Shown here: piece by piece, positions 1 to 19,683 of the stretch | Layout: each line of letters opens with the position of its first letter | How positions within the stretch are numbered: the first letter of the stretch is position 1 | Assembly: GCA_013285465.1 (NCBI GenBank) | Contig: CP053449.1 | Coordinates: 929,540 to 993,539 of the forward strand | Direction: 5' to 3' | Origin: Pseudomonadota bacterium | Lineage (GTDB): Bacteria > Pseudomonadota > Alphaproteobacteria > Micavibrionales > CSBR16-224 | DNA: 64,000 nt | Position numbers and translations under genes: made by a program | Notes under the pieces: generated by a model | The model's input: the letters and a program-made list of their open reading frames with translations, nothing else | What the model was told of the DNA's origin: nothing | Databases searched by the model: none

Positions 1-636
1 ATACTGGTTCCACATCTGTACTTCTGTGATTTCTGTGGCAATCAGCCAATGCGGTGATCCTTCCAGCAAATAGGGCGTACTGGTGTCGATGGATTTCGGG
101 CGCAGATGAAAATGGAGAATGACGGCGCCACCCCGATCCTTATTAAAATAGGGCGCATTTGCCAGCCTGTCTTCCGGCATAGTAAACCATTGATAATTCA
201 TGATATCTGTCGGCACAACGGCGAAGTAACCGCCTTCATGCTTGAAGCTGAAAAATTTGTCTTTCTCCATGCCTTCAATCTGGAAACCGCCATGTTCCCG
301 ATCATAGGGCGGGACATAGGTTTTGACCTGCACAACAATCGGATCATCAACTTTCAGGCGCGCGTAATAATCGTGGTAAATATCGGTGCGCTCATTCATA
401 TAGGTCCGTTGCTGCTGTTTGGGCGTTTGTTTGTATTCTTTTGAATTTTCAATCCAGGTTTTAAAATCCGGCTGAAATCCCGCCATTTTGTGGAATAACA
501 TGGAAACATATAATGCATCGGTCTGCGGCGTTACTTGCAGGTTTTCCAGAAACTGCTGCTGCGCATAGGCGCGGGGGATACATAACACGAAAATAATGGC
601 CGCGACAGAAACGGCAAATATAAAACGGCGATACAA
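1..636 (-). CDS. Exported protein of unknown function, C-terminus beyond window edge
   Basis: An open frame of 212 codons runs from a TTG at 636 to the window edge without a stop, so the gene is incomplete here. The TTG was chosen because an AGGAG lies 9 bases upstream and no earlier in-frame ATG is available. Residues 1-25 form a signal peptide (LYRRF, then a hydrophobic stretch, then PRAYAQQQ, with probable cleavage after AYA). The mature part is soluble-looking and rich in Tyr, Lys and Gln (e.g. KQTPKQQQRTYMNERTD, PYDREHGGFQIEGMEKDKF). I do not recognise the family. It is divergent from recA and probably sits in the periplasm. The reading frame is secure but the function is unknown. Confidence 0.72.
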   Translation of the reverse strand, partial: MYRRFIFAVSVAAIIFVLCIPRAYAQQQFLENLQVTPQTDALYVSMLFHKMAGFQPDFKTWIENSKEYKQTPKQQQRTYMNERTDIYHDYYARLKVDDPIVVQVKTYVPPYDREHGGFQIEGMEKDKFFSFKHEGGYFAVVPTDIMNYQWFTMPEDRLANAPYFNKDRGGAVILHFHLRPKSIDTSTPYLLEGSPHWLIATEITEVQMWNQY

Positions 637-797
637 AATCAGGCTCTCCTCATCGTTCTTCCTTATATTATAATCCGACAGCCGTTAAAAAAAAGTGTAA
701 ATTGTAAAACAGATGACGGGTATTGACCGAAAAGATACTGTTGCGGCACAGCATGTTAACTCTTTTGTGCGTCACTATTTTCCCGCCGAGGTCGCGT

Positions 798-823
798 AAA
801 AAACAGCGAAAATCGCTGGTTTT
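798..823. terminator. Short hairpin with A/T flanks upstream of recA
   Basis: Stem CAGCGA (804-809), loop AAA, stem TCGCTG (813-818), flanked by six A on the left and GTTTT on the right. Read leftwards it has the layout of an intrinsic terminator, with a run of T after the stem. Read rightwards it would lie upstream of the likely recA promoter. It could insulate recA from the divergent exported-protein gene. Six base pairs is short for a terminator. Confidence 0.35.
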
Positions 824-847
824 CTTTGCTTCCCCGCAGATTCAGCC

Positions 848-875
848 TTGCAAAAAGCCGCGGCTGCTTTAGACT
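848..875 (+). promoter_or_regulatory. Possible recA promoter; no SOS box seen
   Basis: TTGCAA (848-853), 16 bases, TAGACT (870-875), about 60 bases before the recA start. In the 300-base gap 637-936 I looked for the alphaproteobacterial LexA pattern GTTC-N7-GTTC (and GAAC-N7-GAAC) and found none. The gap otherwise holds only the hairpin at 798-823 and the 5' region of the divergent gene. Confidence 0.35.
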
Positions 876-936
876 GAAACCTGTCAGAATACATCACTAT
901 TACCACAAGGGAATCAGGAAAAGGAGTGCCCGCACC

Positions 937-2085
937 ATGACCGTCACTAATCTGAAAACCAAAGAAAATAACGGCGAAAAGCAGAAAGCGCTCGACGCGG
1001 CTTTGCAACATATCGAAAAAGCCTTCGGTAAAGGCTCGATTATGAAGCTGGGCGCGGAAGGACAGCAGGTTCAAAATATCGAAGCCGTATCCACCGGATC
1101 GCTTGGTCTTGATATCGCTCTTGGAATCGGCGGCTTGCCGCGCGGTCGTATCACGGAAATTTACGGACCGGAAAGCTCCGGTAAAACAACATTGGCGCTG
1201 CATGTGGTTGCCGAAGCGCAAAAACAGGGCGGCACCTGTGCCGTTGTTGATGCCGAGCACGCGCTTGATCCCGCCTATGCCGCAAAACTCGGCTGTAACG
1301 TGCCCGAGCTGTTGATCTCCCAGCCCGATACGGGTGAACAGGCGCTTGAAATCGCCGATACGCTGGTACGTTCCGGCGCGATTGATGTTCTGGTCATCGA
1401 CTCCGTTGCGGCACTTGTGCCGAAAGCCGAGCTGGAAGGCGAAATGGGCGACACCCATGTCGGTCTGCAAGCCCGCCTGATGAGTCAGGCGCTGCGGAAG
1501 CTGACAGGCTCGATCTCCAAATCGAAAACCGTCGTGATCTTTATTAACCAGATCCGTATGAAAATCGGCGTCATGTTCGGCAGTCCCGAAACAACTGCCG
1601 GCGGTAACGCGCTGAAATTCTACGCCTCTGTCCGTCTTGATATTCGCCGCAGCAAGCAGATCAAAGACAAGGAAGAATCCGTCGGCTCCATCACCAATGT
1701 GAAAGTCGTGAAAAACAAAGTTGCGCCGCCTTTCCGCACCGTGTCTTTTGACATTATGTTCGGTCAGGGCATCTCGAAAGAGGGCGAAATCCTTGATCTG
1801 GGCGTTGACAGCAATGTTGTTGAAAAATCCGGTGCCTGGTTCTCCTATAAAGGGGAAAAAATCGGGCAGGGCCGTGAAAAAGCGAAAGAGTTTTTGAAAG
1901 AAAACCCGAAAATTTCGCATGCGATTGAAAGCGTTATCCGCAATAATGCCGGTCTGGTTGCTGAAACAATGCTGATGACCAGCGTGGAAGCCGCGGAATT
2001 CGAAAAAGACGCTGAAGAAGCCGCTGCGGTTGTTGCCGCTGAAAAAGCAAAAGACACAAAAGACGCAGAGAAAGCGGCTGAATAA
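937..2085 (+). CDS. recA: Recombinase RecA
   Basis: 382 residues, full length for the family. RecA binds single-stranded DNA, drives strand exchange and triggers LexA cleavage. The start is the ATG at 937: AGGAG lies 10 bases before it, and the residues encoded upstream do not belong to RecA. Walker A GPESSGKT is at residues 77-84, the Walker B-like LVIDSV follows at about 145, and the conserved loops [19 protein letters not shown] and [18 protein letters not shown] are intact. The C-terminus is an acidic and Ala/Lys-rich tail, as usual. The gene is followed by a strong intrinsic terminator, so it is probably monocistronic. No LexA operator could be seen upstream. Confidence 0.98.
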
Positions 2086-2117
2086 CAGCCGTTTTTCTGC
2101 AAAGATATGACGGAATG

Positions 2118-2150
2118 CCCCTTCGCCCTTGGTGAAGGGGTTTTCTTTTT
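2118..2150 (+). terminator. Intrinsic terminator of recA
   Basis: Stem CCCCTTC (2118-2124) pairs with GAAGGGG (2134-2140) around a 9-base loop and is followed by TTTTCTTTTT. Confidence 0.9.
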
Positions 2151-2168
2151 GCTGTTATGGCAATAAAA

Positions 2169-2197
2169 TTGACAAATATTATGTAATATGTTATATT
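2169..2197 (+). promoter_or_regulatory. Near-consensus sigma-70 promoter of the ankyrin gene at 2238
   Basis: TTGACA at 2169-2174, exactly 17 bases, TATATT at 2192-2197, leaving a leader of roughly 35 bases. The spacer carries TTATGTAATATGT (2179-2191), which recurs in the promoter of another ankyrin gene at 55898-55910 and could be an operator. Confidence 0.8.
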
Positions 2198-2237
2198 TTC
2201 GCCAGTTTTATCAATCATAAAGACAGATAGGAATATC

Positions 2238-3395
2238 ATGACGGCGGAACAGAAAACGGACGATCAGGCGCAGACGGCACAGAAAGCTGTTAAAGCAAAA
2301 AAGCCGAAAAAACCGAAGAAAACCAAGGAAGAAAAAGCCGCAGCCCGCAAGCAGTTCCGTGATTACTGGCAATGGCGCATTGCGCTGTCATTCAAAGGGG
2401 TGAATGGCTGGATCAGTGAAATGGAGAGTGCGGTCGAAAATGAAGACCGTAAAAAGCTGAACGCCATCCTGAATAACGGTGAATTTAAACGCAAACTCGG
2501 CGAACAAAAACAAAAAAACCTGATCGTTATGGCGTGGGAAACCGTTATCGCCAAAGAAAAAACGGAACTTTATGATTTCCTGCTGAACCATCCCTGCGAT
2601 CCCAGCGTTAAGGATAGAAGCTCCCGCTACGGCAATAAGTCAAAGCCGGGCGAATATATGACGGCCTATGCCGTGGCCTACCGCAATCGCCCGATTTTGG
2701 AGGCTATGCAGCAGGCCGGTGTGGATATGAATTTCGAATGGCATAATTACGACTGGCATATGCGCGATACGCGCGGCATTCCGCTGGATAATGCCGTGAA
2801 ACGCCATGACAGTGAATTTGTTTCTGTACTGCTGGACGGCGGCGCGAAAGCCGGTTATCGCCATGCGGCGGTGCTGGTCAATAATCTTGCCAAAGGGCGC
2901 GGCATAGAAAACGGCCATGAATGTCTTGATATGATTTTGGCGAAAAAGCCGAAACTTGATCTGGAAGACGGCGCATTACTGCGCACCGCGGCACAAGGCC
3001 GCGACAAAGTCACGTTTGAAAAACTTCTCGATGCTGGTGCTGATCTGGAATTGTCCTACCGCTATACACAGGGCGGCACGGCAGAGGCGGAATTTATGCG
3101 CGCCTATGTTGAAAAAAGCCGCACCGGCTGGCATCTGGCAGGTGAAGATGTTGTCATCAAAATCAGCTATGCCCCTGACAGCGACACACGCATCCGCGAG
3201 GTCTTTAATTTCGGCAGCGAAATCGTCTCGACCGAAATCAATGATAATGCCCCTGCGCAGCTGCCCTTTAATCAGGTGGCGCAAAAACAGATTCAAAAAG
3301 CAAAATCCGCACAGGCAAAACTGCTGAAAAAGCCGGAAGAACAGGTGCAGCAGACACCGCTGCCCGCATCTTCCAGTGCGAAAAAAACGCGGTAA
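2238..3395 (+). CDS. Ankyrin-type protein with C-terminal IFNF domain
   Basis: 385 residues. Residues 1-35 are a Lys/Ala-rich basic stretch. About 55-290 hold degenerate ankyrin repeats, recognisable by pieces such as PLDNAVKRHDSEFVSVLLDG and LLRTAAQGRDKVTFEKLLDAG. The C-terminal part, from about 297 on, begins GWHLAGEDVVIK, continues RIREVFNFG and ends in a Lys/Gln-rich tail. This segment matches the C-termini of the proteins at 6697-7728, 7855-8889 and 55101-55832. There is no signal peptide or membrane span, so it is probably cytoplasmic and protein-binding. It has its own promoter and a terminator, so it is monocistronic. The ankyrin call is good; the partner and role are unknown. Confidence 0.85.
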   Translation: MTAEQKTDDQAQTAQKAVKAKKPKKPKKTKEEKAAARKQFRDYWQWRIALSFKGVNGWISEMESAVENEDRKKLNAILNNGEFKRKLGEQKQKNLIVMAWETVIAKEKTELYDFLLNHPCDPSVKDRSSRYGNKSKPGEYMTAYAVAYRNRPILEAMQQAGVDMNFEWHNYDWHMRDTRGIPLDNAVKRHDSEFVSVLLDGGAKAGYRHAAVLVNNLAKGRGIENGHECLDMILAKKPKLDLEDGALLRTAAQGRDKVTFEKLLDAGADLELSYRYTQGGTAEAEFMRAYVEKSRTGWHLAGEDVVIKISYAPDSDTRIREVFNFGSEIVSTEINDNAPAQLPFNQVAQKQIQKAKSAQAKLLKKPEEQVQQTPLPASSSAKKTR

Positions 3396-3420
3396 TCTTT
3401 TACCTTAGAAGGCGGAATCA

Positions 3421-3451
3421 AAAAAGGCGTGCAAATCAAAGCACGCCTTTT
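3421..3451. terminator. Bidirectional intrinsic terminator
   Basis: AAAAGGCGTGC and GCACGCCTTTT form an 11-bp stem around AAATCAAA, with A and T runs on the two sides. It serves the ankyrin gene ending at 3395 and the convergent gene ending at 3475. Confidence 0.88.
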
Positions 3452-3474
3452 GAATATTGTATCGCCGTGACGAC

Positions 3475-4170
3475 TTAGCCGCGTGACTGTTTCGGCAGTC
3501 CGGCTTTGACCTTTATCTTGGCTTCTTCCAGCGACAAATCATGTGCAACACTATGGCCGATGCGCCGGTGTGTGCGGTAGTTGTTAAAGAAGGCTGTCAG
3601 CTTATTGCGGGATTTTTGCGTTTCTTTGGTATCCATGACGGTGTAAAGGCCGGTCTGCTCATTTTTCTCCGCGGAGAGATAGTTGAAGACACGCTCCAGA
3701 CCTTTTTCGGAAACAAGCTCTTTCTCGCCGGTGATGGTTTTGGGAGATTGGCGGCTTGTTGCCAGTATTTTCCGCAGCGCTGTGATATTTTCATCCGATA
3801 GCGGGTTCAGAATAGGGCGGTTTTTCTGCTTGCAGAGCAATTCACCGTCATAGGGTTCAATATGTCCTTTTTCCTGCTCTGCTTCCCATTTTTTTAGCAG
3901 TTTCACGGCTTTATCAAGGGAGATGTTATTCCAGCCGCTATACTGTTCCTCACGGAAGCTGTTCCCCTGTTGGCGACCATCGTTCCCAATACCGCAGGAA
4001 TAGGTGAAAATGCTGACATCCAGCTTGTTATCTTCATTGACAACGGCCTGCATGTGACTGTAATGCACTTCGCTGTCGCTATCGGGGTAAAAGGTTACGC
4101 CGCTAGTCGGGGCGAAGGGCTTTGTGTGTAAACCGGGAATGTTTTTATAAGGGGTGTTTTCTGTGGTCAT
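3475..4170 (-). CDS. Hypothetical protein, no family recognised
   Basis: 231 residues from the ATG at 4170. An ATG 30 bases upstream is less likely: it lacks a ribosome binding site and sits almost on the predicted transcription start, while the chosen ATG has AAGGA at good spacing. The protein is soluble, polar and Lys/Glu-rich with no signal peptide. Visible pieces include TFYPDSDSEVHYSHMQAVVN, GNSFREEQYSGWNNIS and FFNNYRTHRRIGHSVAHDLS. It is flanked by its own promoter and a terminator, so it is a single-gene unit. I cannot assign a function. Confidence 0.75.
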   Translation of the reverse strand: MTTENTPYKNIPGLHTKPFAPTSGVTFYPDSDSEVHYSHMQAVVNEDNKLDVSIFTYSCGIGNDGRQQGNSFREEQYSGWNNISLDKAVKLLKKWEAEQEKGHIEPYDGELLCKQKNRPILNPLSDENITALRKILATSRQSPKTITGEKELVSEKGLERVFNYLSAEKNEQTGLYTVMDTKETQKSRNKLTAFFNNYRTHRRIGHSVAHDLSLEEAKIKVKAGLPKQSRG

Positions 4171-4210
4171 GTTAGTAGTCTTCCTTACAGTCGTTTTCAT
4201 GTGATAGAGG

Positions 4211-4239
4211 ACTGTAGAAGCAGTTCAATAATATGTCAA
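4211..4239 (-). promoter_or_regulatory. Promoter of the gene at 3475-4170
   Basis: On the minus strand TTGACA (4234-4239), 17 bases, TACAGT (4211-4216). The expected start of transcription is near 4203, which supports the internal ATG at 4170 as the true start. Confidence 0.75.
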
Positions 4240-4317
4240 GTTATGGGGCGGAGGAATTCTACTAAGTCACTGGATTAAAACAATATAAAAATATTGTATT
4301 GGTATGATTTTTTATGC

Positions 4318-5154
4318 TCAGGCCGTCATCAAATCCAGCAATTCGCCTTGCCCTGACAACAGCCCGCAGGTGATCGGCAGGCTGTCCATTTCAGCCGTGG
4401 TACCATCCAGCGTCATTGTGACGCCGTTGACCTTCACGCCTTGCGCATTGGGGTCATAGCCGCGGATCACATAGGAAAACGGATCATAGGCGGTACGGAT
4501 GTCATTGAATTTTTTTCCCTTCCACCAGAAACTGTCCTGCTGCTGCGCAAGCGGTTTTTCAGGATCAATTCCCGCATGTACGAACAGCAGCGGCGTGTTG
4601 CCGGTCGTAAAGGCGGCGCGGCGCAGGGCGGCCATAAATTCGCTGTGACCGGGATGGCGGCGCAGATTTTGGCGCAGTGAATTGGTCCATTTCGTCAGGC
4701 TTAAAATACCTTCGCGGCAGACGCGGCGGGCTTCTTCTATATTGCCGCCGTAATCACACAGGCTTTGCGCAATGCCGTGTTCGATCATCCATTCAAAGAC
4801 GCCGGACGGGTCGCGGGCGAATTGCAGTTGCAAAAGCTTTTGCCAGATTTCCTCCTGCACACCGCGCAGATACACGATATCACCGCATTGCACACCTTCC
4901 TGTGCCAACAGATATTTGCGGAATCCCAGTAAGTCATCAATCGTCTGTACGGCGGAATGCGCGGCACTGCCATCCGCATCACCGCCGGTATAATTACCGA
5001 AATAGACAACACGGTCGCCGGGCTTGAAATTGCGGGCGATTTCTTCATGAATATCGGCAAGTTTTTCCCTGTCACCGTAAATGGCGGAAACAGTCCAGAT
5101 ACGGCGGGGATCTTTCAGATTTGCAAAACGCGGATCATCTGCAGGGGATGTCAT
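4318..5154 (-). CDS. Metallophosphoesterase-like protein with degenerate active site
   Basis: 278 residues. The layout follows the PPP/ApaH-type metallophosphatases: AIYGDRE at about 24-30 where GDxHG is expected, GDRVVYFGNYTGG at about 46-58 where GDxVDRG is expected, LRGVQEE at about 96-102 where RGNHE is expected, and VHAGID at about 192, which is well kept. Thus the metal-binding His of the first motif, the Asp of the second and the Asn-His of the third are changed. The fold seems retained but catalysis is doubtful. GAGG precedes the ATG, and a promoter lies at 5251-5280. The family call rests on motif order and spacing, so it is moderately sure. A pseudo-enzyme with binding or regulatory function is my inference. 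Confidence 0.68.
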   Translation of the reverse strand: MTSPADDPRFANLKDPRRIWTVSAIYGDREKLADIHEEIARNFKPGDRVVYFGNYTGGDADGSAAHSAVQTIDDLLGFRKYLLAQEGVQCGDIVYLRGVQEEIWQKLLQLQFARDPSGVFEWMIEHGIAQSLCDYGGNIEEARRVCREGILSLTKWTNSLRQNLRRHPGHSEFMAALRRAAFTTGNTPLLFVHAGIDPEKPLAQQQDSFWWKGKKFNDIRTAYDPFSYVIRGYDPNAQGVKVNGVTMTLDGTTAEMDSLPITCGLLSGQGELLDLMTA

Positions 5155-5250
5155 ATATGCCTCAAATCACCGTTTTTTAAGAATGTTATTGTGTTGTGAC
5201 GGTCATGATGTGACCGGAAGGCGGGCAGAGAAGAACATCTCTGTTCTTTC

Positions 5251-5280
5251 AGTATAGCACAGGTGATTCGAATCCGTAAA
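5251..5280 (-). promoter_or_regulatory. Likely promoter of the metallophosphatase-like gene
   Basis: On the minus strand TTTACG (5275-5280), 18 bases, TATACT (5251-5256). A small hairpin GAACA-GAGA-TGTTC falls in the early leader. Confidence 0.5.
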
Positions 5281-5301
5281 CAACTGATTCGTCAAGCTGA
5301 A

Positions 5302-6618
5302 TCATTCTTCCGTAAAGGCGATCGCCTGGCCTGACGGCGTACCGCTGATCTCGTCATCACGCATGGCGATCACGCCGCCCAGCACGGTCATCACAGGCCA
5401 GCCCGTGACTTCCATGCCGTCAAAAGGCGTCCAGCCACATTTGCTTTTGACCCAGTCATTGCTGATGGTGCGGCGGGCATTCATGTCGACGATTGTCAAA
5501 TCACCGTCATAACCGGTTTCAATCCGGCCCTTGCCTTTGATGCCGTAAATGCGCTGCGGATTGTGGCAGACCATATCGACAAAACGCTCCAGCGTCAGCC
5601 GGCCATGATTGACATGGTTCAGCATCAGCGGCACCAGCGTCTGCACACCCGGCATACCGCTGGGGCTTTCGGGATAGGGGCGGGCTTTTTCCTCATGCGT
5701 ATGCGGTGCGTGATCCGAGCCGATCAAATCGGCAACGCCTTTTTGCAAGCCTTTCCACAAGGCGGCGCGGTGGCGCTCTTCACGGATCGGCGGGTTCATC
5801 TGCGCGAGCGTGCCCAAGCGCTCGTAACAATCCGGCGCAAACAGCGTCAGATGCTGCGGCGTGACTTCCACCGTGGCAATATCCTTATTGGCCGCCAGCA
5901 GCTCCATTTCCTCCGCCGTCGTCACATGCAGAACATGGATGGGGCGGCCGGTTTTATGCGCCAGTCTGAGCAGTCGTTGCGTGGCTTTCAGCGCGGTTTC
6001 CACATCACGCCAATGCGGATGCAGTTTTACATCACCGCTGCCTGCAACCAGCGCCGCGCGCTCTTTTAAGCGGGCCTCATCCTCGGCATGTACGGCAACG
6101 CGGCGCGTACCGTGGGAGAGAATGCGCTCCAGCGTTTCATCATCTTCGGTTAAAAGATTGCCGGTACTGGAACCCATAAAGACTTTCACACCGCAGCAGC
6201 CGGGCAGACGTTCCAGAACGGGCAGTTCTGCGGCATTCTCGCCGGTGCCGCCGACAAAAAAGGCGTAATTGCACCATGCACGGCCTGCGGCGCGGTCCAG
6301 CTTGTCTTGCAGCGCTTCCGCCGTCGTGGTCAGCGGATCGGTATTGGGCATTTCAAACACAGCGGTCACACCGCCGGCCAGTGCGGCCAGTGTTCCCGTA
6401 TTCAAATCTTCCTTATGGGTGTTGCCGGGTTCACGAAAATGCACCTGCGTGTCAATCACGCCGGGCAGAATATGCAGGCCTTTACAGTCGATTTCTTCCG
6501 CCGCAGGCGCATCCGGCTTGCCGATTGCGGTAATTTTGCCGCCGGTAACGCCGATATCGGCCTGAATTGTGCCATCCGGTGTGACGATATGGCCGTTTTT
6601 GAAAAGAATGTCATACAT
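5302..6618 (-). CDS. pyrC: Dihydroorotase
   Basis: 438 residues, a class I dihydroorotase that cyclises N-carbamoyl-aspartate to dihydroorotate in pyrimidine synthesis. Metal ligands are visible: the DTQVHFREPG motif, the lysine in GVKVFMGSSTG (expected to be carboxylated), AVHAED, HVLHVTT and SDHAPH. The substrate loop ESPSGMPGVQT is present. The start has a perfect AGGAGG seven bases upstream, but that AGGAGG lies inside a hairpin (6622-6669), so translation may be controlled or the hairpin may be a terminator of the upstream gene. A weak dyad, TGATTC/GAATCA, overlaps the stop codon. Hydantoinase or allantoinase is a less likely alternative. Confidence 0.92.
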   Translation of the reverse strand: MYDILFKNGHIVTPDGTIQADIGVTGGKITAIGKPDAPAAEEIDCKGLHILPGVIDTQVHFREPGNTHKEDLNTGTLAALAGGVTAVFEMPNTDPLTTTAEALQDKLDRAAGRAWCNYAFFVGGTGENAAELPVLERLPGCCGVKVFMGSSTGNLLTEDDETLERILSHGTRRVAVHAEDEARLKERAALVAGSGDVKLHPHWRDVETALKATQRLLRLAHKTGRPIHVLHVTTAEEMELLAANKDIATVEVTPQHLTLFAPDCYERLGTLAQMNPPIREERHRAALWKGLQKGVADLIGSDHAPHTHEEKARPYPESPSGMPGVQTLVPLMLNHVNHGRLTLERFVDMVCHNPQRIYGIKGKGRIETGYDGDLTIVDMNARRTISNDWVKSKCGWTPFDGMEVTGWPVMTVLGGVIAMRDDEISGTPSGQAIAFTEE

Positions 6619-6621
6619 GAA

Positions 6622-6669
6622 AAAACCTCCTGAACCTTTCCGTGAAAATACACGGTTTCAGGAGGTTTT
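6622..6669 (-). promoter_or_regulatory. Hairpin that sequesters the pyrC ribosome binding site
   Basis: On the minus strand AAAACCTCCTGAA (6657-6669) pairs perfectly over 13 bp with TTCAGGAGGTTTT (6622-6634). An inner CCGTG/CACGG stem closes around a short loop. The right arm contains the AGGAGG of pyrC, and the T run ends two bases before the ATG. It has the form of an intrinsic terminator for the upstream ankyrin gene and of a translation-blocking leader for pyrC at once. Confidence 0.8.
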
Positions 6670-6696
6670 AAAAGTGCGAAAGCGGAAACATACCTC

Positions 6697-7728
6697 TTAA
6701 GAAGAAGGACGGTTGCCACGCGCCGAATAGGTATTGCTGCTCCGCGTATAGGTTTCAATGGCTTCGGGCGTACCGCCTTTTTCCAACAGCTTTGCATGAG
6801 CCTGTTTGATTTCCTCTTTATGCGCGACGTCGTCAAAGCTTTGCAGCGGGGAATGCGAAACATTTTTCACATCACCGTCGGCTTCCAGCATTTCCGTGAC
6901 TTTTTCAATCTCCTGCGACAGGAAGTTGAAAATCTTTGTCAGGCGCATTTTACCGGGCAGGGTCGATGTTTTGGCGATGGTAAAATCATCCAGCAATGCC
7001 CATTTGGAATTATGCTTGGCAGGTGAATTCAGATTGCGGACATCCGTGCCGTCATCCAGGTCTTCAAAACGGGCAACAAGATAGGCTTTGGTGGCGGGAT
7101 GATCCGCCGCCTCGAAATCTTCTTTGTAGAATTGTGCGCCGTTATTCAGCAGCAATTCCAGAATTTCCAGCTGGTCATTTTCGACGGCACCGCCGACGGG
7201 CGTATATTTACGTGTCTTTGTGCGATTCCAGCGCGGGGAGCCGCCAATTTCAAGATCGGCACCGTAAGACAGCAGCAAAGCCGCAAAATCCGTCCGGTCA
7301 TCTTCCAGTGTGGTGTGTCCCAATAATGTGTAATCATTATCTTTATCACCAAAGCCGTTGATGTCCAGAAACCCTTCCTGTTGCTGATTGACAGCCAGAA
7401 GGAATTGCAAGCGCCACAGATTACCGTCAATAATCGCCATTGATGCTTGCTTTAAACGCCAATCCGCATCTTCCGTAAAGCTCTCTTTCGCCCATTCAAT
7501 ATCGTCCTCATCAGGGGCGGGAATGGTGATGTCATAAACGTCACCATTGGGCAGTTTCAGCTTGCCGCGTTGCTCTTTGCGATGAATATGTTTTTCGACA
7601 TTATCCGCCGTAATTTCTACAGGTGCGGATTGCGGCTGCGAACGCGGCTTGATATGCGGCAGAATACGCGGTGTTTTTTTATCCTCATTGCGCGGCGTGT
7701 TCTCGGGGGGCTCGGGATGTTCTTCCAT
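6697..7728 (-). CDS. Ankyrin-type protein with C-terminal IFNF domain
   Basis: 343 residues. An N-terminal Pro/Arg-rich linker (1-35) is followed by a segment with LPNGDVYDITIPAPDEDDIEW (about 60-80), then two to three degenerate ankyrin repeats (YTLLGHTTLEDDRTDFAALL, TPVGGAVENDQLEILELLLN). The C-terminal domain starts KWALLDDFTIAK and contains MRLTKIFNF at about 257-265. The protein is a clear paralogue of its upstream neighbour at 7855-8889 (shared LPxGD...TIPAPD, LWR..FLL and the IFNF block), so the pair arose by tandem duplication. GAGGA precedes the ATG. No signal or membrane segment is seen; cellular role unknown. Confidence 0.85.
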   Translation of the reverse strand: MEEHPEPPENTPRNEDKKTPRILPHIKPRSQPQSAPVEITADNVEKHIHRKEQRGKLKLPNGDVYDITIPAPDEDDIEWAKESFTEDADWRLKQASMAIIDGNLWRLQFLLAVNQQQEGFLDINGFGDKDNDYTLLGHTTLEDDRTDFAALLLSYGADLEIGGSPRWNRTKTRKYTPVGGAVENDQLEILELLLNNGAQFYKEDFEAADHPATKAYLVARFEDLDDGTDVRNLNSPAKHNSKWALLDDFTIAKTSTLPGKMRLTKIFNFLSQEIEKVTEMLEADGDVKNVSHSPLQSFDDVAHKEEIKQAHAKLLEKGGTPEAIETYTRSSNTYSARGNRPSS

Positions 7729-7792
7729 CGGGTCCTCTTCTCATGAATATAGGGCGCAAAGCGCGGTTCTTGCGGGAATTAACAATAAAAAA

Positions 7793-7822
7793 ATGCTAGC
7801 ATGCGCAAATGCGCTATGTCAA
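7793..7822 (-). promoter_or_regulatory. Probable promoter of the ankyrin gene at 6697-7728
   Basis: On the minus strand TTGACA (7817-7822), 18 bases, TAGCAT (7793-7798). The spacer holds a dyad GCGCA-TT-TGCGC, and ATGCTAGCAT is palindromic over the -10 region, so an operator here is possible. Confidence 0.5.
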
Positions 7823-7854
7823 TAAATTAAATATATTCCGGGTTGCTGTTTTTT

Positions 7855-8889
7855 CTAAGGGTTTTTCTTCTGGATGCGGCGCGGCGCGGCACTGTTTGAA
7901 GCCGGACGCAGGCTTTCATCACCATTCTGTGCGAGGAATACGCGAAAGGCTTCATCAATCTCCGCACGGTTGCGGATGCGCTGGAAATCCTCTGCGGCGG
8001 ACGGGGCGCTGACGGCGATGGTTTGCCCCTTCAGATCGACGCTTTCGGTATAGCGCAGCACATGCTCGGCCTTGAAGTTGAAAACCGTATGAAGACGCAT
8101 GCCGCCGCCAAGATTAACGGATTTAACGATGCTGTCATCGCCGGCTTTGTTCCAGCCAATCACGGCATTTACGGCTTTGGCCTTTTGCTTTTTGTTCAGA
8201 TTGCCGTATTGGGCAACAGCGGGTGACAATTTGTGTCCGACGGTTTGCGCCAGATATTCTTTGATCTCCGGATGCGAGACTTTCTCGAATTCATCGGGAT
8301 AGAATTTCGCCTCTTGTCCGATCAGAAGTTTGACAATATCCAGCCGGTCATAATAGATGGCCTTCATCAGGGGCGTATCGCGGCGCGTGGTATATTTGGT
8401 ATCAATATCCGCACCATGCGACACCAGCAGGGTAGCCAGATCATGATAGCCGTTTATGGCGGCGATGTTTAAAGGCGATTGTGCGAAATATTCGCGAATT
8501 TCATGGGCACCGTCCAGCGCCCGTTTTTCCGGCGGTGTGTCTTTTTGTTGCTCCAGCAGGAAATAGACCCGCCACAGCCGGTTTTTGTAACAGCTTTCGC
8601 AAAGCTCATAGCCGCGCTCTTCCGGCGGTTTTTTTATCAGGCTTTTGGCCCAGCGCAGGTCTTTTTTGTCCGGCGCGGGAATCGTCAGGGTTTGCCGATC
8701 ACCTTTCGGCAGGGAAACCGCAATCTGCTTTTCTTCAGGATAATGCTCAAAGTAGAGCGATAGCGTATCGGCATTTTTGAAAACCGGGAGAGATCCTTCC
8801 GGTACACTGGCAGCGAGCGCCGCGGCAGCGCTTGCTTCGGCCTGTAATTGTTCAGGCGTTTTCGCAGGTTTTTTGAAAGGATTTATCAT
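7855..8889 (-). CDS. Ankyrin-type protein with C-terminal IFNF domain, probably leaderless mRNA
   Basis: 344 residues from the ATG at 8889. The frame could be extended to a TTG at 8925, but that TTG is part of the -35 box and cannot be transcribed. The protein has an Ala-rich N-terminus, the paralogous segment LPKGDRQTLTIPAPDKKDLRW, ankyrin repeats (SPLNIAAINGYHDLATLLVS, TPLMKAIYYDRLDIVKLLIG) and the C-terminal block GWNKAGDDSIVK ... MRLHTVFNF. It is a tandem paralogue of the downstream gene at 6697. The A of the ATG is only eight bases past the -10 hexamer, so the message should have no 5' leader. Function unknown; protein binding inferred. Confidence 0.85.
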   Translation of the reverse strand: MINPFKKPAKTPEQLQAEASAAAALAASVPEGSLPVFKNADTLSLYFEHYPEEKQIAVSLPKGDRQTLTIPAPDKKDLRWAKSLIKKPPEERGYELCESCYKNRLWRVYFLLEQQKDTPPEKRALDGAHEIREYFAQSPLNIAAINGYHDLATLLVSHGADIDTKYTTRRDTPLMKAIYYDRLDIVKLLIGQEAKFYPDEFEKVSHPEIKEYLAQTVGHKLSPAVAQYGNLNKKQKAKAVNAVIGWNKAGDDSIVKSVNLGGGMRLHTVFNFKAEHVLRYTESVDLKGQTIAVSAPSAAEDFQRIRNRAEIDEAFRVFLAQNGDESLRPASNSAAPRRIQKKNP

Positions 8890-8896
8890 CCCGCTG

Positions 8897-8925
8897 AATA
8901 TACAGAAAGAAAGTTGATATGTCAA
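8897..8925 (-). promoter_or_regulatory. Near-consensus promoter of the ankyrin gene at 7855-8889
   Basis: On the minus strand TTGACA (8920-8925), 17 bases, TATATT (8897-8902), then only seven bases before the ATG at 8889. This predicts transcription starting at or next to the start codon. Confidence 0.78.
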
Positions 8926-9317
8926 TATGAATGCATTCTATGATTCGGGCTGAATCGGGGCGTTTTGACATGTGTTTTTATCAGCTTTGTTTCACGGGCA
9001 CCGAAAAAATAAAAAGATTATCCGGCGCGGATCAATGCCGGAGCGGGGCGGTACAACGCAAGAAGAAAATGCCGCAAGATAAAAGGGGATTGAAAAATAA
9101 GGTAAAGATATCACTGTCTTCAAATAGGCTAAAATTTGCGGCAGTTTTGCCTTTAATTTAGCTTTTATATTATCATCTAATATATTGATTTGTATGTATT
9201 ATTTACGCTTCCTTAAGCGCGCGGTGCTATTCTGGAATTATGAGCCGATGAGTTGGAGCGGACTTGACGCTTGAAAACATTCAACTGAAGACAGCCTTAT
9301 AATTGGAGCAACCAAAA
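8926..9317 (+). other. Intergenic stretch between divergent ankyrin and flp genes
   Basis: 392 bases without a convincing gene. The left end holds the upstream part of the minus-strand ankyrin promoter. The remainder should contain the flp promoter, but I cannot pick one with confidence: the TATAAT at about 9297 is too close to the pilin start and overlaps its ribosome binding site. A small TTGAA-AACA-TTCAA dyad lies at about 9271-9284. A 76-codon frame at 8931-9161 looks random and is not called. Confidence 0.5.
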
Positions 9318-9509
9318 ATGCAAAAACTCTTGATAAAATTTCAAACATGGAAATCCTGCGAAGATGGTGCAACGGCAATTGAATACGGGCTGATCGCAGC
9401 CGGTATTGCGGTCGCCATCAGCGCGGTCGTATTTACCCTCGGCGACGAGCTGGCGAATTTGTTCACGACAATGTCGGATCAGATCGCGGGCGCGGGCGGA
9501 GGAGAATAA
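9318..9509 (+). CDS. flp: Flp-type prepilin
   Basis: 63 residues from the ATG at 9318, which has GGAG nine bases upstream; an in-frame TTG 15 bases earlier overlaps that site and is rejected. This is the type IVb pilus subunit assembled by the Tad machinery. The basic leader MQKLLIKFQTWKSCEDG is followed by the class-typical ATAIEYGLIAAGIAVAI, with cleavage expected after the Gly and Glu/Tyr at positions +5/+6. The C-terminus is a short Gly-rich tail. It stands apart from the tad operon on the opposite strand and has its own terminator. A second flp gene at 19766-19960 shares the core sequence exactly. Confidence 0.93.
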   Translation: MQKLLIKFQTWKSCEDGATAIEYGLIAAGIAVAISAVVFTLGDELANLFTTMSDQIAGAGGGE

Positions 9510-9570
9510 GAACTACCAGCCTAAGCCTTCCAACCCTCCTTGCGACTATATACACATGGCTATACCAAAG

Positions 9571-9601
9571 ACTCCGCCCGTTCCAGGGCGGAGTTTCTTT
9601 G
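9571..9601 (+). terminator. Intrinsic terminator of flp
   Basis: ACTCCGCCC (9571-9579) pairs with GGGCGGAGT (9586-9594), followed by TTCTTTG. Confidence 0.85.
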
Positions 9602-9716
9602 TCGGGTCCCATCTTTCCGATACGAGGTTGTTGCTACGTTGTGAAAAAGGGTGGTATTGACCAAAATGATATGGTAACTTTGCCGTTCTTTACAAAAAAC
9701 GGGACGGAAATTTTTC

Positions 9717-11009
9717 ATGTCACAGCTTCGCAACAGCTTTAACAAACGCAGCAGCCGTATGAGCGAATGGTCGGCCGTTGAATTTGAAGCGGGCTTACTG
9801 GAAACCGTGCGGGAAAACAAAAGCGGTGCAATCCGCCAATATATTACCGAAGTCAATGCGCGGCTGCGCAAATCCACCCAAAAGGAAAAACAGCATTACC
9901 GGATGATCCTGCGTGAAGGTGCCATGCTGGCCCAGTATCTGGGGCATGCCTATCTGTCACGCACGCTGGGGCAGGTTGCGGCGGCAAATGGCGCACGTGG
10001 CGGTCTGGTGCGTCCGAATGCGGGAAAATCGCTGAAAACGCTTTCCGGGATGTTGGGTGCCATTGAAACGGGCAATCTGCTGAAAACGCAGCAAAGCTAT
10101 CACAGTTTGCCGGCGATGGATCAACAGGACGCGGCGGATAAAGGGCTGGCACTGGCCTGCCGCTACGGGCAGAGTGCTGCCGTCAGCTTCTTTCTGGAGA
10201 AAGGCGCAAAGCTGCAATATGACCAGCAGGATATTCTGGCATGGACGGCGGGCGAGGGACGTATCGACCTGCTGAAAAAATTCGAGGACAAAGGCAAAGA
10301 CGCTTTCGATAAAAACGCGGCATTGCTGGCAACAATCACCGGCAGCGGTAACAAACAGGACCGTTTTGATGCCATGCGCTGGTTGGTGGAACAGGGCGCG
10401 GATATCCACACCCGCAGAGGTTTACCGCTGTTTCTGGCGGTGACGGGCGACCAAAAAGACATGGCGGATTATCTGCTGGCGCAGGGGGCTGACCTTGATA
10501 CCGCCTATGAAACGGGCTGGGCGGATGTGAAAAGAAGTTATGAGCGCGACAGTGCCGCGGCCAAATTCGCGCCCTATTGGGATGTTTATGCCCGTAAATA
10601 TCAGGAAGATTATGACCGTTTGGTTGGCGATAAGCCGGATATCGACGTGCTGCGCGGTTTTGTGGATGAAAAAAGCGGTATGACAGGTCTGGGGCTGGCA
10701 GTGCGTGCAGGAAAACTGGAACAGGTGCTGGAGCATTTATGCGAAACGGGGGCGAAGCTGGATGTGCATGATATTGACAGGATCGGCGGCGCCGCGCGAA
10801 ACGGTCTGAAATTACTGGAACGGCGCGATCAATTTGAAGCCGTCTTCAATGCAAAGCTGTGGATGCATAATCCGAAAGCCGTTGAAGAATTGCACGGCAA
10901 GCTGGAGGATGAATCGCAGGAACGGATTTCCGTCAAAGCATTGCAGGCGGAAATTCGCAACAGACATATGCGTAATTTCGTGCGCAACAGAAAAAAACCG
11001 TCACGGTAA
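9717..11009 (+). CDS. Ankyrin repeat protein without the IFNF domain
   Basis: 430 residues, soluble. Residues 1-115 are helical and basic, without clear repeats. About 130-270 contain ankyrin-like units (GLALACRYGQSAAVSFFLEKGA, FDAMRWLVEQGADIHTRRGLP, FLAVTGDQKDMADYLLAQGADL), with another near 335 (GLGLAVRAGKLEQVLEHLCETGA). The C-terminal 80 residues are charged and helical (NPKAVEELHGKL ... ISVKALQAEIRNRHMRNF). The domain plan differs from the four IFNF proteins. The stop codon lies within a small GTAACG/CGTTAC dyad shared with the convergent tadC stop. Function unknown. Confidence 0.82.
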   Translation: MSQLRNSFNKRSSRMSEWSAVEFEAGLLETVRENKSGAIRQYITEVNARLRKSTQKEKQHYRMILREGAMLAQYLGHAYLSRTLGQVAAANGARGGLVRPNAGKSLKTLSGMLGAIETGNLLKTQQSYHSLPAMDQQDAADKGLALACRYGQSAAVSFFLEKGAKLQYDQQDILAWTAGEGRIDLLKKFEDKGKDAFDKNAALLATITGSGNKQDRFDAMRWLVEQGADIHTRRGLPLFLAVTGDQKDMADYLLAQGADLDTAYETGWADVKRSYERDSAAAKFAPYWDVYARKYQEDYDRLVGDKPDIDVLRGFVDEKSGMTGLGLAVRAGKLEQVLEHLCETGAKLDVHDIDRIGGAARNGLKLLERRDQFEAVFNAKLWMHNPKAVEELHGKLEDESQERISVKALQAEIRNRHMRNFVRNRKKPSR

Positions 11010-11016
11010 CGCCGCG

Positions 11017-11970
11017 TTACGGAGCCGATAAAAAGGCCGGGCCCAGAATGGTCACAAACAGGGCGGGCAGGAAAAACAAAATCATCGGGACGGTCAGTTT
11101 CGGCGGCAGGGATGCCGCTTTTTGTTCGGCTGCCGCCATGCGCAATTCCCGCAGCTCATCCGACAATACACGCACAGCCTTGGAGACCGATGTCCCGTAT
11201 TGTTCTGCCTGCATCATGGCCGTGGCAAAAGACTTGGCGGAGCCGCTGCCGACCCGCGTCGCAAAACCTTTAAAAGCGGCTTTGCGGTCGCTCAGCAGTC
11301 CCAGTTCCGCACTCAGCAGCCCCATCTCTTCCGCCAGAACCTCTGACAGCGGAGCGACTTCCTCGGAAATCTTGCTGATGGCGCCTTCAATCCCGATACC
11401 GCCCTGCACGCAAATCAAAATCATATCCAGCGCATCGGGGAAGGTAATGGAGATTTCCTGCTGGCGCTTATCGGCCATGTTTTTGATCAGGATACGCGGC
11501 AGAAAGAATCCGAAAATTGCGAGGCCGAAAATAATAATGAATTGCAGGCTTTGCTTGATTTCCTTATCGGCGGCAGCCATAAAAAAAATGGCAAGACTGC
11601 TAAAGACGACCGGCAGCAGAATACGTGATACAAGATATTTCAGCGGTGCGGAAGGTGTGCGAATGCCCGCTTGCAAGAGCAGGTTACGCGCCTGCTGGCT
11701 GGCATTACCGGCCAATTGCTGTACGCGGTAAAAAGCCGCGATGCTTTGCGCGGCCGTATGATGGTCCAGCTTATTCCCTTTGCTGCTGGCCTGTTCGCGC
11801 ATCGTGTTATACAGGCTGCGGCGGCGCTGTTCGACAACATCTTGATAATGCTTTTTCTTTTCGGAATTTCTGAGCAGCGGCATGGCAATCGCCAAAAAAG
11901 TCAGAAACGCCCCCATCGCGCTGACGATGGTCAAAAGCAGGGTTTTATCAATCGGTATAAAATCAAACAT
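11017..11970 (-). CDS. tadC: Tad pilus inner-membrane platform protein TadC
   Basis: 317 residues, type II secretion F-domain family. With TadB it should form the inner-membrane platform of the Flp pilus machine. There is one N-terminal membrane span (about 10-30), two spans near 110-165, and a C-terminal span (about 290-312). The cytoplasmic F domain lies between them (FPDALDMILICVQGGIGIEGAISKIS, GTSVSKAVRVLSDELR). The start lies 11 bases after the tadB stop, so it is translated from the same operon. It is the last gene of the operon here; tadD, E, F and G are not in the window. Confidence 0.93.
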   Translation of the reverse strand: MFDFIPIDKTLLLTIVSAMGAFLTFLAIAMPLLRNSEKKKHYQDVVEQRRRSLYNTMREQASSKGNKLDHHTAAQSIAAFYRVQQLAGNASQQARNLLLQAGIRTPSAPLKYLVSRILLPVVFSSLAIFFMAAADKEIKQSLQFIIIFGLAIFGFFLPRILIKNMADKRQQEISITFPDALDMILICVQGGIGIEGAISKISEEVAPLSEVLAEEMGLLSAELGLLSDRKAAFKGFATRVGSGSAKSFATAMMQAEQYGTSVSKAVRVLSDELRELRMAAAEQKAASLPPKLTVPMILFFLPALFVTILGPAFLSAP

Positions 11971-11981
11971 TTGCGTGGCTT

Positions 11982-12965
11982 TTATATCTTAAAGTTGATC
12001 ATTTGTTTCATAATGAAGACACCGATGCTCATCCAGATACAAGCGCCTGTTACCATGATTTTCCCTTTGGGAATGGTGAACAGCTTCATAATATATTCCG
12101 GATTAACAAGGTAAAGACCGGTGGCGACAACCAGCGGCAGACAGCCGATAATCATTGCCGAGGCCTTGGCCTCGGATGACAGCGCCTGCACTTTCCGCTG
12201 CAGGCGGAACCGTGCACGGATGACGCCGGACAGATTGGTCAGAACCTCGCTGAGGCTGCTTCCCGTTTCACTCTGGATCTGGATGGCGGTGGCAAACATT
12301 TGCATTTCGGTCAGCGGCATACGCTCCGCGGCGCGGGAGGCGGCTTCTCCCATCGGAATACCGACCTTCTGGTCATCATACATATGGGACATTTCCAGCC
12401 CCAGCGGCCCGCCGAATTCCTTGGCAGCCATCGAAATGGCTTCACTGACGGGCATACCGGCCTGCAGCATACGGACAATGGCATCCAGCGCATCCGCAAA
12501 ATCCTCCAGAAATTGTTTCTGGCGGCGCTTGGCTTTGAATTTCAGGAAAAAGCGCGGCATACCGAAAAAGGCGGTGAACAACAGCAGCGATTTGACCAGC
12601 CCCGACCATGACGTCAGCGAAATCAACCCGTAGAAAGAGGCGGCAAAAATAAGCGAATACAGATAAAATTTCCAAAGCGGCGTGTCAAAACCCGCTTGCT
12701 GGATCAGGAATTTCAGCGAGCCTTCGCGCTTCTTTTTCTCTTTCAGGTTTTCTTCACTGGATTCTTTCAGCTTTTTGGCGATTTCCGCGCGCTGCTGTGC
12801 CAGTTTCTTGTCCTTGCTGTCGCGCGGCCCGGCACCGCCGCTGCGTCCCGTGACAATCGAATACATATGGCGCTTCTTGTCCTGAATGCGTCCGATGATG
12901 ACGGCAATCACGATACCGACAGTCATCACGAGTATCATTGCAAGAATGGCAGGGCTGATAACCAT
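11982..12965 (-). CDS. tadB: Tad pilus inner-membrane platform protein TadB
   Basis: 327 residues, type II secretion F-domain family, paralogue and partner of TadC. It has an N-terminal span (about 7-26), a charged cytoplasmic stretch rich in Lys/Glu (about 45-85), a hydrophobic pair near 100-135, the F domain (FADALDAIVRMLQAGMPVSEAISMAAKEF), and C-terminal spans at about 270-320. The ATG overlaps the tadA stop by one base (TAATG), which indicates translational coupling with the motor ATPase gene. Confidence 0.93.
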   Translation of the reverse strand: MVISPAILAMILVMTVGIVIAVIIGRIQDKKRHMYSIVTGRSGGAGPRDSKDKKLAQQRAEIAKKLKESSEENLKEKKKREGSLKFLIQQAGFDTPLWKFYLYSLIFAASFYGLISLTSWSGLVKSLLLFTAFFGMPRFFLKFKAKRRQKQFLEDFADALDAIVRMLQAGMPVSEAISMAAKEFGGPLGLEMSHMYDDQKVGIPMGEAASRAAERMPLTEMQMFATAIQIQSETGSSLSEVLTNLSGVIRARFRLQRKVQALSSEAKASAMIIGCLPLVVATGLYLVNPEYIMKLFTIPKGKIMVTGACIWMSIGVFIMKQMINFKI

Positions 12966-14629
12966 TATTGATAGGCCTCTTCCATGGCTTTCAGGACTTT
13001 TTCTTCCAGATTGAACTCGCGTGCGCGCTCATACATGATCGGACGCAATCCTGTTGATTTTTGCGTACCGATAATACGGCCGAATTCGTCATCGCCTTCA
13101 TACTGGAATTTGAACAGATCCTGCATGGTGATGACTTCGCCCTCCATGCCGGTAATCTCGCTGACATGGGTAACCTTCCGCGAACCGTCGCGCAGACGCT
13201 GCACCTGAATGATGACATTGACGGCAGAGGCAATCTGCTCCCGCACGGCAGCCTGCGGCAGGTTCAGCCCGCCCATGGCGATCATGTTCTCCATACGGGT
13301 GACGGCCTCGCGCGGGTTGTTGGCGTGCACCGTTCCCATTGAACCGTCGTGACCGGTATTCATGGCCTGCAACAGGTCAAAGGCTTCCGGGCCACGCACC
13401 TCACCGACGATAATACGGTCGGGGCGCATACGCAGACAGTTCCGGACAAGGTCACGCATCGTCACTTCACCCACACCCTCCAAGTTAGGCGGGCGGGTTT
13501 CAAGGCGCACGACATGGGGCTGCTGCAATTGCAGCTCCGCCGCATCCTCACAGGTGATGACGCGCTCATCCTTGCGGATATAATTGGTCAGACAGTTCAG
13601 CATGGTGGTTTTACCACTACCCGTACCGCCGGAAATCAGGATATTGGCACGGCATTCGCCGATCACCTTCAGCATTTCCGCGCAAGAAGGTGTCATGGCG
13701 CCGAAATCCAGCAGCTTGTCCAGCGTCAGCTTTTCTTTCGTAAATTTACGAATGGTCATAGAGGCGCCGTCAATGGCCAGCGGCGGGATAATGACGTTCA
13801 CACGCGAGCCGTCCGGCAGACGCGCATCACAAATCGGGCTGGATTCATCAACGCGGCGGCCGATAATGCCGACAACCCGCTGTGCGATGGTCAAAAGATG
13901 CTGGTCATCGCGGAATTCGATATTGGCGCGCTGGATTTTTCCGTTCAGCTCGATATAGATGACCTTCGGGCCGTTAATCATGATATCGGCAACGCCGTCC
14001 ATTTCCAGCAGTTCTTCCAGCGGGCCAAAGCCCAGCATATCATCGGCGGCTTCCTTGGCGATCTGTGCCAGCTCCGCCGGTGTCAGGTCAAGGGAGCGGA
14101 ACTGTCCGATCTCGTTCACGGCGGAGAGAATTTCCTCCCGCGCCGCTTCCGTATCCATGCGGGCGAGGGACTTCAGATCAATCCCGTCGCGCAAATCCGC
14201 CCAGATACGCTTATGCGCACGTTCAATACGCGGATTTGTCCGCACGGTCGACGTATGTTCATCCGGCTCGTCTGCGGCGGGGGCATTATCCCCTTTTTTC
14301 GGTAAGTCGCTTTTTTTCTTCGGCGGCGGCGCTTCGGTCTGTTTGGCCGGCGGTGCCTTTTTCGGTTGTTCTTCCGTCTTCGGCGGCGGCGCTGTTTCTG
14401 CGGCGCTATCTTCGGCGTTTTGCAGCGCCATAATCGTGTCTTCCAATGACGGCTGTTCTTCCGCAGCATCATCTTTTTCATCTGCAGGCGGTGAGGGCGG
14501 CGCCTCTTTCTTTACAGGCGGTGCCTCCGCTTCCTTTTTTTCGGCAGGTTTTTTCTCGTCCGTTTCCTTTTTCGGAGCGGCGTCCTTTTTCTTCTTATCC
14601 TTGTCCGACTTTTTTCCAAACATGGGCAA
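12965..14629 (-). CDS. cpaF: Tad pilus assembly ATPase CpaF/TadA with long charged N-terminal tail
   Basis: 554 residues, the secretion ATPase that powers Flp pilus assembly. The catalytic half holds Walker [13 protein letters not shown] (about 332-343), [26 protein letters not shown] (Asp and His boxes), [16 protein letters not shown] (Walker B) and [15 protein letters not shown]. An N-domain with [19 protein letters not shown] precedes it. The first 120 residues are a low-complexity tail of Lys, Ala, Pro and Glu and look disordered; this makes the protein about 80-100 residues longer than typical CpaF. It sits between cpaE and tadB in one operon. Confidence 0.95.
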
Positions 14630-14638
14630 TCCGTTCCG

Positions 14639-15868
14639 TTATGATTTCAAGATTTTGGACAGAAACCCTTCTTTTTTGCCCTTTTCGCCTTTTTCCGTAG
14701 AGGCTTTGGCATCAGGGACGAGCGTTTTTGCAAAATCAATAAACGGTTTCATAAGCTTTTCGGCGGCTTTGTCGCGGCTGATTTCTTTTTCCTGCGCCTC
14801 ATTGCCGATAAATAATTTCAGATCATGGGGCAGGGTGAGGCTGACATCATATTCCAGCAGATTTTTGATTTCTTTTGCGGGCACTTCCAGCCCTTTGGCG
14901 CAGCCTTCCATATTGACGACCAGAAGCGGTTTTTTTCCATCCTCGTCTTTTTGGTCACCGCGCAGCTCTTTTAACAGCGTGCGGCAGTTCCGCAAAGCCG
15001 GCAGCAGCGGCGTTGTCACGATAATGGTATGATGCGCCTTTTTCAGCGCCAGCCGCTGGATGTGATGTTCCGCCGCCGACAGATCAAGCACCACAACCGG
15101 ATAAGTCTTCATAAAATAATCGAGCATATTTTCGAAACCGGCCTCGTCGCAGGAGGTTTCAAAAAGCGGGTCGCCACCGGTGGGCAACAGGGTCAGCAAA
15201 TCAGAATTCTTGCTCAGCAGGCGTTTGATATCGTCTTCCGTACCGCCCTGCACCTGGCGCGCCGCCTCGGCAAGCGTGGTTGTCACTTCGGCACCGAAGG
15301 GAATAACAAGCGTTCCCCAGCCGCCGGAACCGTCCAAAAGCAGGGTTTTCTGTCCGAGTTTGTCAGCCAGAACCGATCCCAGCATATGGGCGACGGTTGT
15401 CGTACCGACACCGCCTTTACTGCCGATCACCGTAATCAGGCTGCTGTCGCTTAATCCTTTTTTATCCAGCAAAATCTGCGCCGTGACTTCGGCCAGCTCG
15501 TCTTTTTTGACGGGCGCGACCAGATAATCACGCACCCCCATGCTGACAAGGCGGCGGTAAAGCTCGACATCGTTTTTCGGGCCGATGATAATGGCTTCCG
15601 TGCCTTCGACGCAGTTTTCAGCCAAAGCCTCCAACTTGTCGATAAAGCCGTCGCCGATATCATCGGTTTCAATGATGACCAGATCGGGGGAGACATGCTG
15701 TTCGTAATCAGTGGTGGCATTATCAATGCCGCCCTCGACAACGCGCACGGCCACACGGGCATAGCGCCAGTCCTGCACCAGTGCATTGGCGGCATCAACC
15801 GTCTTCTTGTTCAACCCGTAAACATCTACACGTGCGGCGGGCAGTAAAACTGCGGTATGGTCGGACAT
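14639..15868 (-). CDS. cpaE: Tad pilus localisation ATPase CpaE/TadZ
   Basis: 409 residues, a MinD/ParA-like ATPase that places the pilus machine. Residues 1-135 form an atypical receiver-like domain (DLVIIETDDIGDGFIDKLEAL, AIIIGPKNDVELYRRLVSMG). The ATPase domain starts with the deviant Walker A GSKGGVGTTTVAHMLGSV at about 150, followed by LLLDGSGGWGT and VVLDLSAAE. The C-terminus is Lys-rich. It lies nine bases after cpaD and nine bases before cpaF. Confidence 0.92.
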   Translation of the reverse strand: MSDHTAVLLPAARVDVYGLNKKTVDAANALVQDWRYARVAVRVVEGGIDNATTDYEQHVSPDLVIIETDDIGDGFIDKLEALAENCVEGTEAIIIGPKNDVELYRRLVSMGVRDYLVAPVKKDELAEVTAQILLDKKGLSDSSLITVIGSKGGVGTTTVAHMLGSVLADKLGQKTLLLDGSGGWGTLVIPFGAEVTTTLAEAARQVQGGTEDDIKRLLSKNSDLLTLLPTGGDPLFETSCDEAGFENMLDYFMKTYPVVVLDLSAAEHHIQRLALKKAHHTIIVTTPLLPALRNCRTLLKELRGDQKDEDGKKPLLVVNMEGCAKGLEVPAKEIKNLLEYDVSLTLPHDLKLFIGNEAQEKEISRDKAAEKLMKPFIDFAKTLVPDAKASTEKGEKGKKEGFLSKILKS

Positions 15869-15877
15869 TCTTTCCTC

Positions 15878-16561: not shown

Positions 16562-16573
16562 GGCGTATCCCCT

Positions 16574-18001: not shown

Positions 18002-18070
18002 TTTTTCCCCCACTTTCCATGTTTTCTGTAACACGGCATTTTATCCTGTTCAGCAGTTTTCATTCTTCGG

Positions 18071-18958: not shown

Positions 18959-19071
18959 TTTAAAGCACCCGGGGTCATAAAGACGAAAAAGTGAATATTT
19001 TCAATTGTAAGGCGGGAAGACTTAATAGTCCTTCTATCCATTCTGCCACAAACGCGTCAAAGGGTCAAAAC

Positions 19072-19647: not shown

Positions 19648-19683
19648 GTTGATGAAACCGCCGGATTAAAAAGCCTTGGGATT

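Follow-up and report, generated by a model that had tools for sequence, protein, structure and literature searches.

The enteric pyrC gene, which encodes a dihydroorotase, carries a hairpin over its Shine-Dalgarno (SD) sequence, and a CTP-dependent choice of the transcription start reportedly decides whether that hairpin forms, as the alternative starts include or exclude its left arm. In Escherichia coli, the rph-pyrE intercistronic attenuator, a hairpin resembling a terminator, separates a pyr gene from an unrelated gene ahead of it; the SD lies outside the terminator, and the upstream stop codon is near enough for ribosome coupling. A read-through lock, by which the SD is hidden in long transcripts only, is already known from a few other genes. 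In Bacillus subtilis, a large hairpin prevents sigG from being translated when the RNA has read through from spoIIG, whereas transcripts that start at the sigG promoter are unable to form it (PMC5942855). Phage T4 gene e and I-TevI have late promoters in the 5′ strand of an inhibitory hairpin (PMC3014915, PMC2988022).

Here we describe a hairpin that buries the SD of an alphaproteobacterial pyrC gene. With a probability of about one half, we read it as a read-through lock, doubling in this species as the intrinsic terminator of an upstream ankyrin-type gene; most likely it adds a member to the known class, here joined with a terminator. Like sigG, pyrC lies downstream of another operon, and its hairpin would hide the ribosome binding site in read-through transcripts only, and the native mRNA would be unable to form it. 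The locus differs from sigG in that the hairpin is also terminator-shaped, the gene encodes a biosynthetic enzyme, and its own promoter is predicted only. As at T4 gene e, soc, and I-TevI, the SD would be sequestered in long transcripts, and translation would come from short ones whose promoter lies within the hairpin, whereas the T4 cases involve phage timing, an alternative sigma factor, and no terminator role.

The window, which is the whole 64,000-nt stretch of DNA analyzed (G000:C1:929540-993539), comes from a 2.67-Mb genome (G000) whose congeners are Alphaproteobacteria MAGs. Two ankyrin-type genes in tandem (8925-7855 and 7728-6697) are followed by pyrC (6618-5302), all on the minus strand, and 78 nt separate the stop codon of the second ankyrin-type gene from the pyrC ATG. 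The genes and the upstream promoter are as follows.

7793-7822, minus strand: promoter of the ankyrin-type ORF, TTGACA-18-TAGCAT, from a promoter-matrix scan, with hexamers identical in congener G001
6697-7728, minus strand: upstream ankyrin-type ORF, from the ORF listing; Pfam Ank_2 at E 2.8e-4, below the curated cut-off, and homologous to its tandem neighbor
5302-6618, minus strand: pyrC, dihydroorotase, 438 aa, from the ORF listing and NCBIfam (PRK09060 / TIGR00857 class)

Profile searches place the pyrC product among class I-type dihydroorotases (NCBIfam PRK09060, 739.7 bits vs. a cut-off of 482); it is above the cut-off for TIGR00857 and reaches 27 bits for TIGR00856, for which the cut-off is 293. 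No other dihydroorotase-class match in the genome exceeded its cut-off, and pyrC appears by this measure to be the sole dihydroorotase gene. A paralogue at 735468 falls below the dihydroorotase cut-off, and its sequence resembles that of a dihydropyrimidinase. At L138:9452-11925, a dihydropyrimidinase-like gene adjoins a nitrilase-family (beta-ureidopropionase-like) ORF, both identified from sequence reading only, and the pair suggests reductive pyrimidine breakdown. Throughout the family of this pyrC (5302-6618), the dihydroorotase metal motif reads QVHFR rather than HxH (91 of about 107 motif matches), the first metal-ligand histidine being replaced in nearly all members found.

Read 5′ to 3′ on the minus strand, the sequence ahead of pyrC is AAAACCTCCTGAA-A-CCGTG-TATTTT-CACGG-AAAGG-TTCAGGAGGTTTT-TTC-ATG, with the ATG at 6618. 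The outer stem is perfect over 13 bp (6669-6657 with 6634-6622) and bears an inner 5-bp stem, offset by a 1x5 internal loop. An earlier note on this DNA had described a perfect 13-bp stem over the AGGAGG of pyrC, which is what we find; it had the T run end two bases before the start codon, and the distance is one base (C6619). The parts of the hairpin are given below.

6657-6669, minus strand: left arm (anti-SD), AAAACCTCCTGAA, from sequence and folds
6640-6655, minus strand: inner stem CCGTG/CACGG (6655-6651 / 6644-6640) with loop TATTTT, from the fold
6622-6634, minus strand: right arm, TTCAGGAGGTTTT, which holds the SD, from sequence and folds
6626-6631, minus strand: pyrC SD, AGGAGG, 7 nt before the ATG and wholly within the right arm, from sequence and folds
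6620-6625, minus strand: T6 run in the form of an intrinsic-terminator U tract, adjoining the GC part of the stem; G001 has T5 here and G002 no T run

The local strand folds at -26.4 kcal/mol, whereas its shuffled versions average -14.7 (z -3.95, 0 of 200 shuffles), and for the hairpin alone none of 2000 dinucleotide shuffles was equally stable (z -5.4). Fold prediction gives the SD an unpaired probability of 0.00 in a long transcript. As a genome control, ORFs were called in 864 kb (the window plus forty 20-kb stretches, about a third of the genome). Among the 432 ORFs with an SD, for which gene calls and starts are crude, pyrC has the highest cost of SD exposure (15.5 kcal/mol; median 2.7, 99th percentile 10.2). 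Burial this deep is clearly exceptional, despite the crude gene calls. We also considered that the hairpin belongs to a repeated element and rejected this, as the four genomic occurrences of the pattern CCTCCT...AGGAGG are no excess over a control pattern.

The earlier note had proposed a comparison of related leaders for conserved pairing, and such pairing is found in the three genomes of the genus that have the arrangement (G000, G001, and G002), where the covariation amounts to one or two events. The pyrC of G001 is 91% identical to that of G000; its arms are AAAACCCTCTTGA and TCAGGAGGGTTTT, in which a C gained on the left and a G gained on the right preserve 13 pairs, and the T run is retained (T5). 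The loop plus inner stem, CGTGTATTTTCACGG, is the same in both genomes. G002 is more divergent, with a pyrC identity of 81% and an identity at 4-fold sites of 0.54 to G000, which is near-saturated at neutral sites. It likewise has an ankyrin gene upstream of pyrC. Its intergenic sequence differs, and a MAFFT alignment of the three leaders misplaces it; TTCTTTTTTCTCC pairs with GGAGGAAAAAGAA across the SD (z -4.6, 1 of 2000 shuffles), although pairing between a pyrimidine tract and a purine-rich SD could arise more readily than the shuffle control implies. The cost of SD exposure in G002 is 12.5 kcal/mol, a value reached by 1 of the 431 non-pyrC genes in the G000 sample. No T run follows the SD-burying stem of G002, and a weak terminator-like stem (-5.2 kcal/mol) lies just upstream, with a pyrimidine tract that is itself the left arm.

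The hairpin is absent from the pyrC genes compared outside the genus. Sister genus g2 (G003, G006) has pyrC without it. When 50 SD-bearing pyrC homologues from public genomes are ordered by the cost of SD exposure, the two congeners come out on top (13.0 and 12.5 kcal/mol), the next value being 8.5 and the median 2.9; the more distant pyrC genes of this set have no such hairpin. On the evidence of one divergent genome, then, SD burial is a genus-level trait that outlasts the terminator form. Because G002 buries the SD with a different sequence and no T run, burial looks selected within the genus, beyond what a by-product of termination would give.

As the earlier note suggested, the hairpin is shaped and placed as a terminator of the ankyrin-type gene would be. 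It has an A4-stem-T6 form in G000 and begins 27 nt after the ankyrin-type stop codon (23-27 nt across all three genomes of the genus), and a GC-rich stem directly followed by a U run, as in intrinsic terminators, is present in G000 (T6) and G001 (T5) and absent from G002. The 1x5 internal loop makes it a less canonical terminator. It was missing from the output of a simple terminator scan, probably because that scan accepted no loops outside 3-8 and the 1x5 loop displaces the inner stem. At positions 1-20000 of the window we counted 56 terminator-like sites, a twofold excess over the 27.9 expected from shuffles, and 29 promoter-like sites, compared to 16.8 expected.

It is possible, if rather unlikely, that the structure is simply an intrinsic terminator for the ankyrin-type gene, that its right arm happens to supply the pyrC SD in a compact gap, that the burial itself is unselected, and that pyrC is served by its own promoter. 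The form and position just described, the retention of hairpin and T run in G001, and the ankyrin gene having a conserved promoter of its own all agree with such an account. It does not explain why the SD is buried at this position in G002 too, where the T run is missing, and SD burial of this kind is rare in the sampled genome.

The earlier note had raised the possibility that the hairpin contains a promoter, and the top-scoring candidate promoter for pyrC in a matrix scan is indeed located within it. We scanned 300 nt upstream of pyrC with a sigma-70-type matrix refined on this genome, using a training set without strongly buried SDs. In both G000 and G001 the top site was TTTTAA-17-TATTTT, with a score of 9.2 that shuffled sequence reaches in about 5% of trials (p about 0.05). 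An earlier matrix, with pyrC in its training set, gave TTTAAA-16-TATTTT at a slightly better rank. The predicted elements are as follows.

6668-6673, minus strand: candidate -35 TTTTAA at the start of the left arm, 17-bp spacer, from the matrix scan (alternative TTTAAA at 6672-6667, 16-bp spacer)
6645-6650, minus strand: candidate -10 TATTTT in the hairpin loop, from the matrix scan
6637-6639, minus strand: predicted start region of pyrC mRNA, about 7 nt past the -10, between inner stem and SD, placed from the matrix scan

The spacing between -35 and -10 is the same in G001, although indels fall between the two elements; the corresponding site in G002 is weak (TTGCTT-17-TATCAC, score 5.7). Before the left arm, the 300 nt contain only weaker promoter-like sites inside coding sequence, with none in the intergenic gap. 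A TATGTT promoter upstream of the hairpin was rejected, since it is deleted in G001. The predicted start region reads CACGGAAAGG, and if the predicted promoter is correct, initiation would be expected at A. Transcripts from the predicted starts have an SD unpaired probability of 0.28 (20-nt leader), 0.32, or 0.75, vs. 0.00 in long transcripts. Evidence for the pyrC promoter, drawn from these scans, is modest. The earlier note took a pyrC transcript starting downstream of 6657 under all conditions, so that the left arm is never transcribed with pyrC, as grounds to give up its proposal of leader control; if the predicted start is right, this holds for the transcript from pyrC's own promoter.

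In the read-through lock that we favor, polymerase from the ankyrin promoter (7822-7793) would transcribe the entire hairpin, and most of these transcripts would stop at the T6 run. RNA that reads through would carry pyrC with its SD buried and would go untranslated. Expression of pyrC would come from its own promoter, with a predicted -35 that overlaps the beginning of the left arm and a predicted -10, TATTTT, that is the loop. The resulting mRNA would begin in the right half of the hairpin, at about 6638, without the left arm, leaving the SD accessible behind a leader of about 20 nt.

One could instead suppose, in the manner of E. coli rph-pyrE, that pyrC lacks a separate promoter and relies on transcription from the ankyrin operon, with either the read-through or the opening of the SD under regulation. 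No strong stand-alone promoter score was obtained upstream of pyrC, the stem follows the upstream stop codon by 23-27 nt in each of the three genomes, and some expression is needed of the only dihydroorotase found. We nevertheless regard such conditional attenuation as quite unlikely. The E. coli attenuator has its SD outside the terminator and a stop codon close enough for ribosome coupling; here the stem, 27 nt further on, would be out of reach of a ribosome positioned at the stop codon, and the SD would stay locked even in anti-terminated RNA. We recognized no antiterminator fold, no leader peptide, and no pause tract, an Rfam search of 6400-7900 returned no family match up to E 1, and a promoter-like site lies within the hairpin in two genomes.

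The earlier note also thought that a principle like that of enteric pyrC may have arisen here, with the pyrimidine-dependent start choice setting whether the left arm is transcribed. The two genes share a name, a dihydroorotase function, and a general device, the hairpin over the SD; our results speak against the rest, and we consider such control very unlikely. No promoter-like site is positioned for starts at or before the left arm, and the predicted start, CACGGAAAGG, lacks a C/G run and gives no C/G choice able to alter the hairpin. The enzyme is also of another class than E. coli PyrC (TIGR00857, not TIGR00856). The hairpin is absent from the sister genera and from other pyrC genes, and the pyrE-like, pyrB, and pyrD leaders have no hairpin over the SD, by which a shared pyrimidine-regulon leader is rejected. 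A 12-bp hairpin, GTTTTTTCTGGTCTGACATCAGGAAAAAC, is found about 70-42 nt upstream of pyrD (L180, L179) in both G000 and G001, clear of the SD.

If the read-through lock joined with a terminator is correct, transcriptional and translational insulation would be combined in one short element ahead of what is apparently the only dihydroorotase gene. It would also caution against taking every SD-covering hairpin for a regulator of the gene it precedes, as the left arm may never enter that gene's mRNA, and it would allow compact alphaproteobacterial genomes to be tested, from sequence, for promoter-in-hairpin insulation.

Tentatively, a single 50-bp element might act as upstream terminator, as translational lock on read-through RNA, and as downstream promoter (-35 at the left arm, -10 in the loop), and such promoter-bearing SD hairpins might recur in this genome and insulate neighboring genes. 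Promoter scores near buried SDs are higher than for other intergenic-like genes (median 8.2 vs. 6.7, p 0.009, n = 11), while sites scoring at least 9 occur at 5 of 11 buried-SD genes vs. 58 of 198 others, a difference that is not significant (p 0.21).

The second most buried SD of the 432 (14.1 kcal/mol) belongs to another ankyrin gene, at L143:17307. A perfect 14-bp palindrome at L143:17271-17302 (G000:C1:1467271-1467302) covers its -10 and SD, and the gene starts directly after. The promoter of this gene, TTGACA-17-TATACT, is of consensus type, and its -10 falls within the left palindrome arm; the palindrome arms are identical in G001 while the flanks have changed. The L143 palindrome might be an operator or a read-through lock. 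By analogy with this conserved palindrome, the pyrC hairpin could, at the level of DNA, be a repressor-binding operator that overlaps the promoter. That is highly improbable, since its arms are changed in G001, and completely so in G002, with the pairing kept, as expected of RNA pairing and not of a fixed protein-binding sequence. Good promoters with the -10 in or beside the left arm of an SD-covering stem were also seen at L156:6115(-), L166:1441(+), and L168:7904(-).
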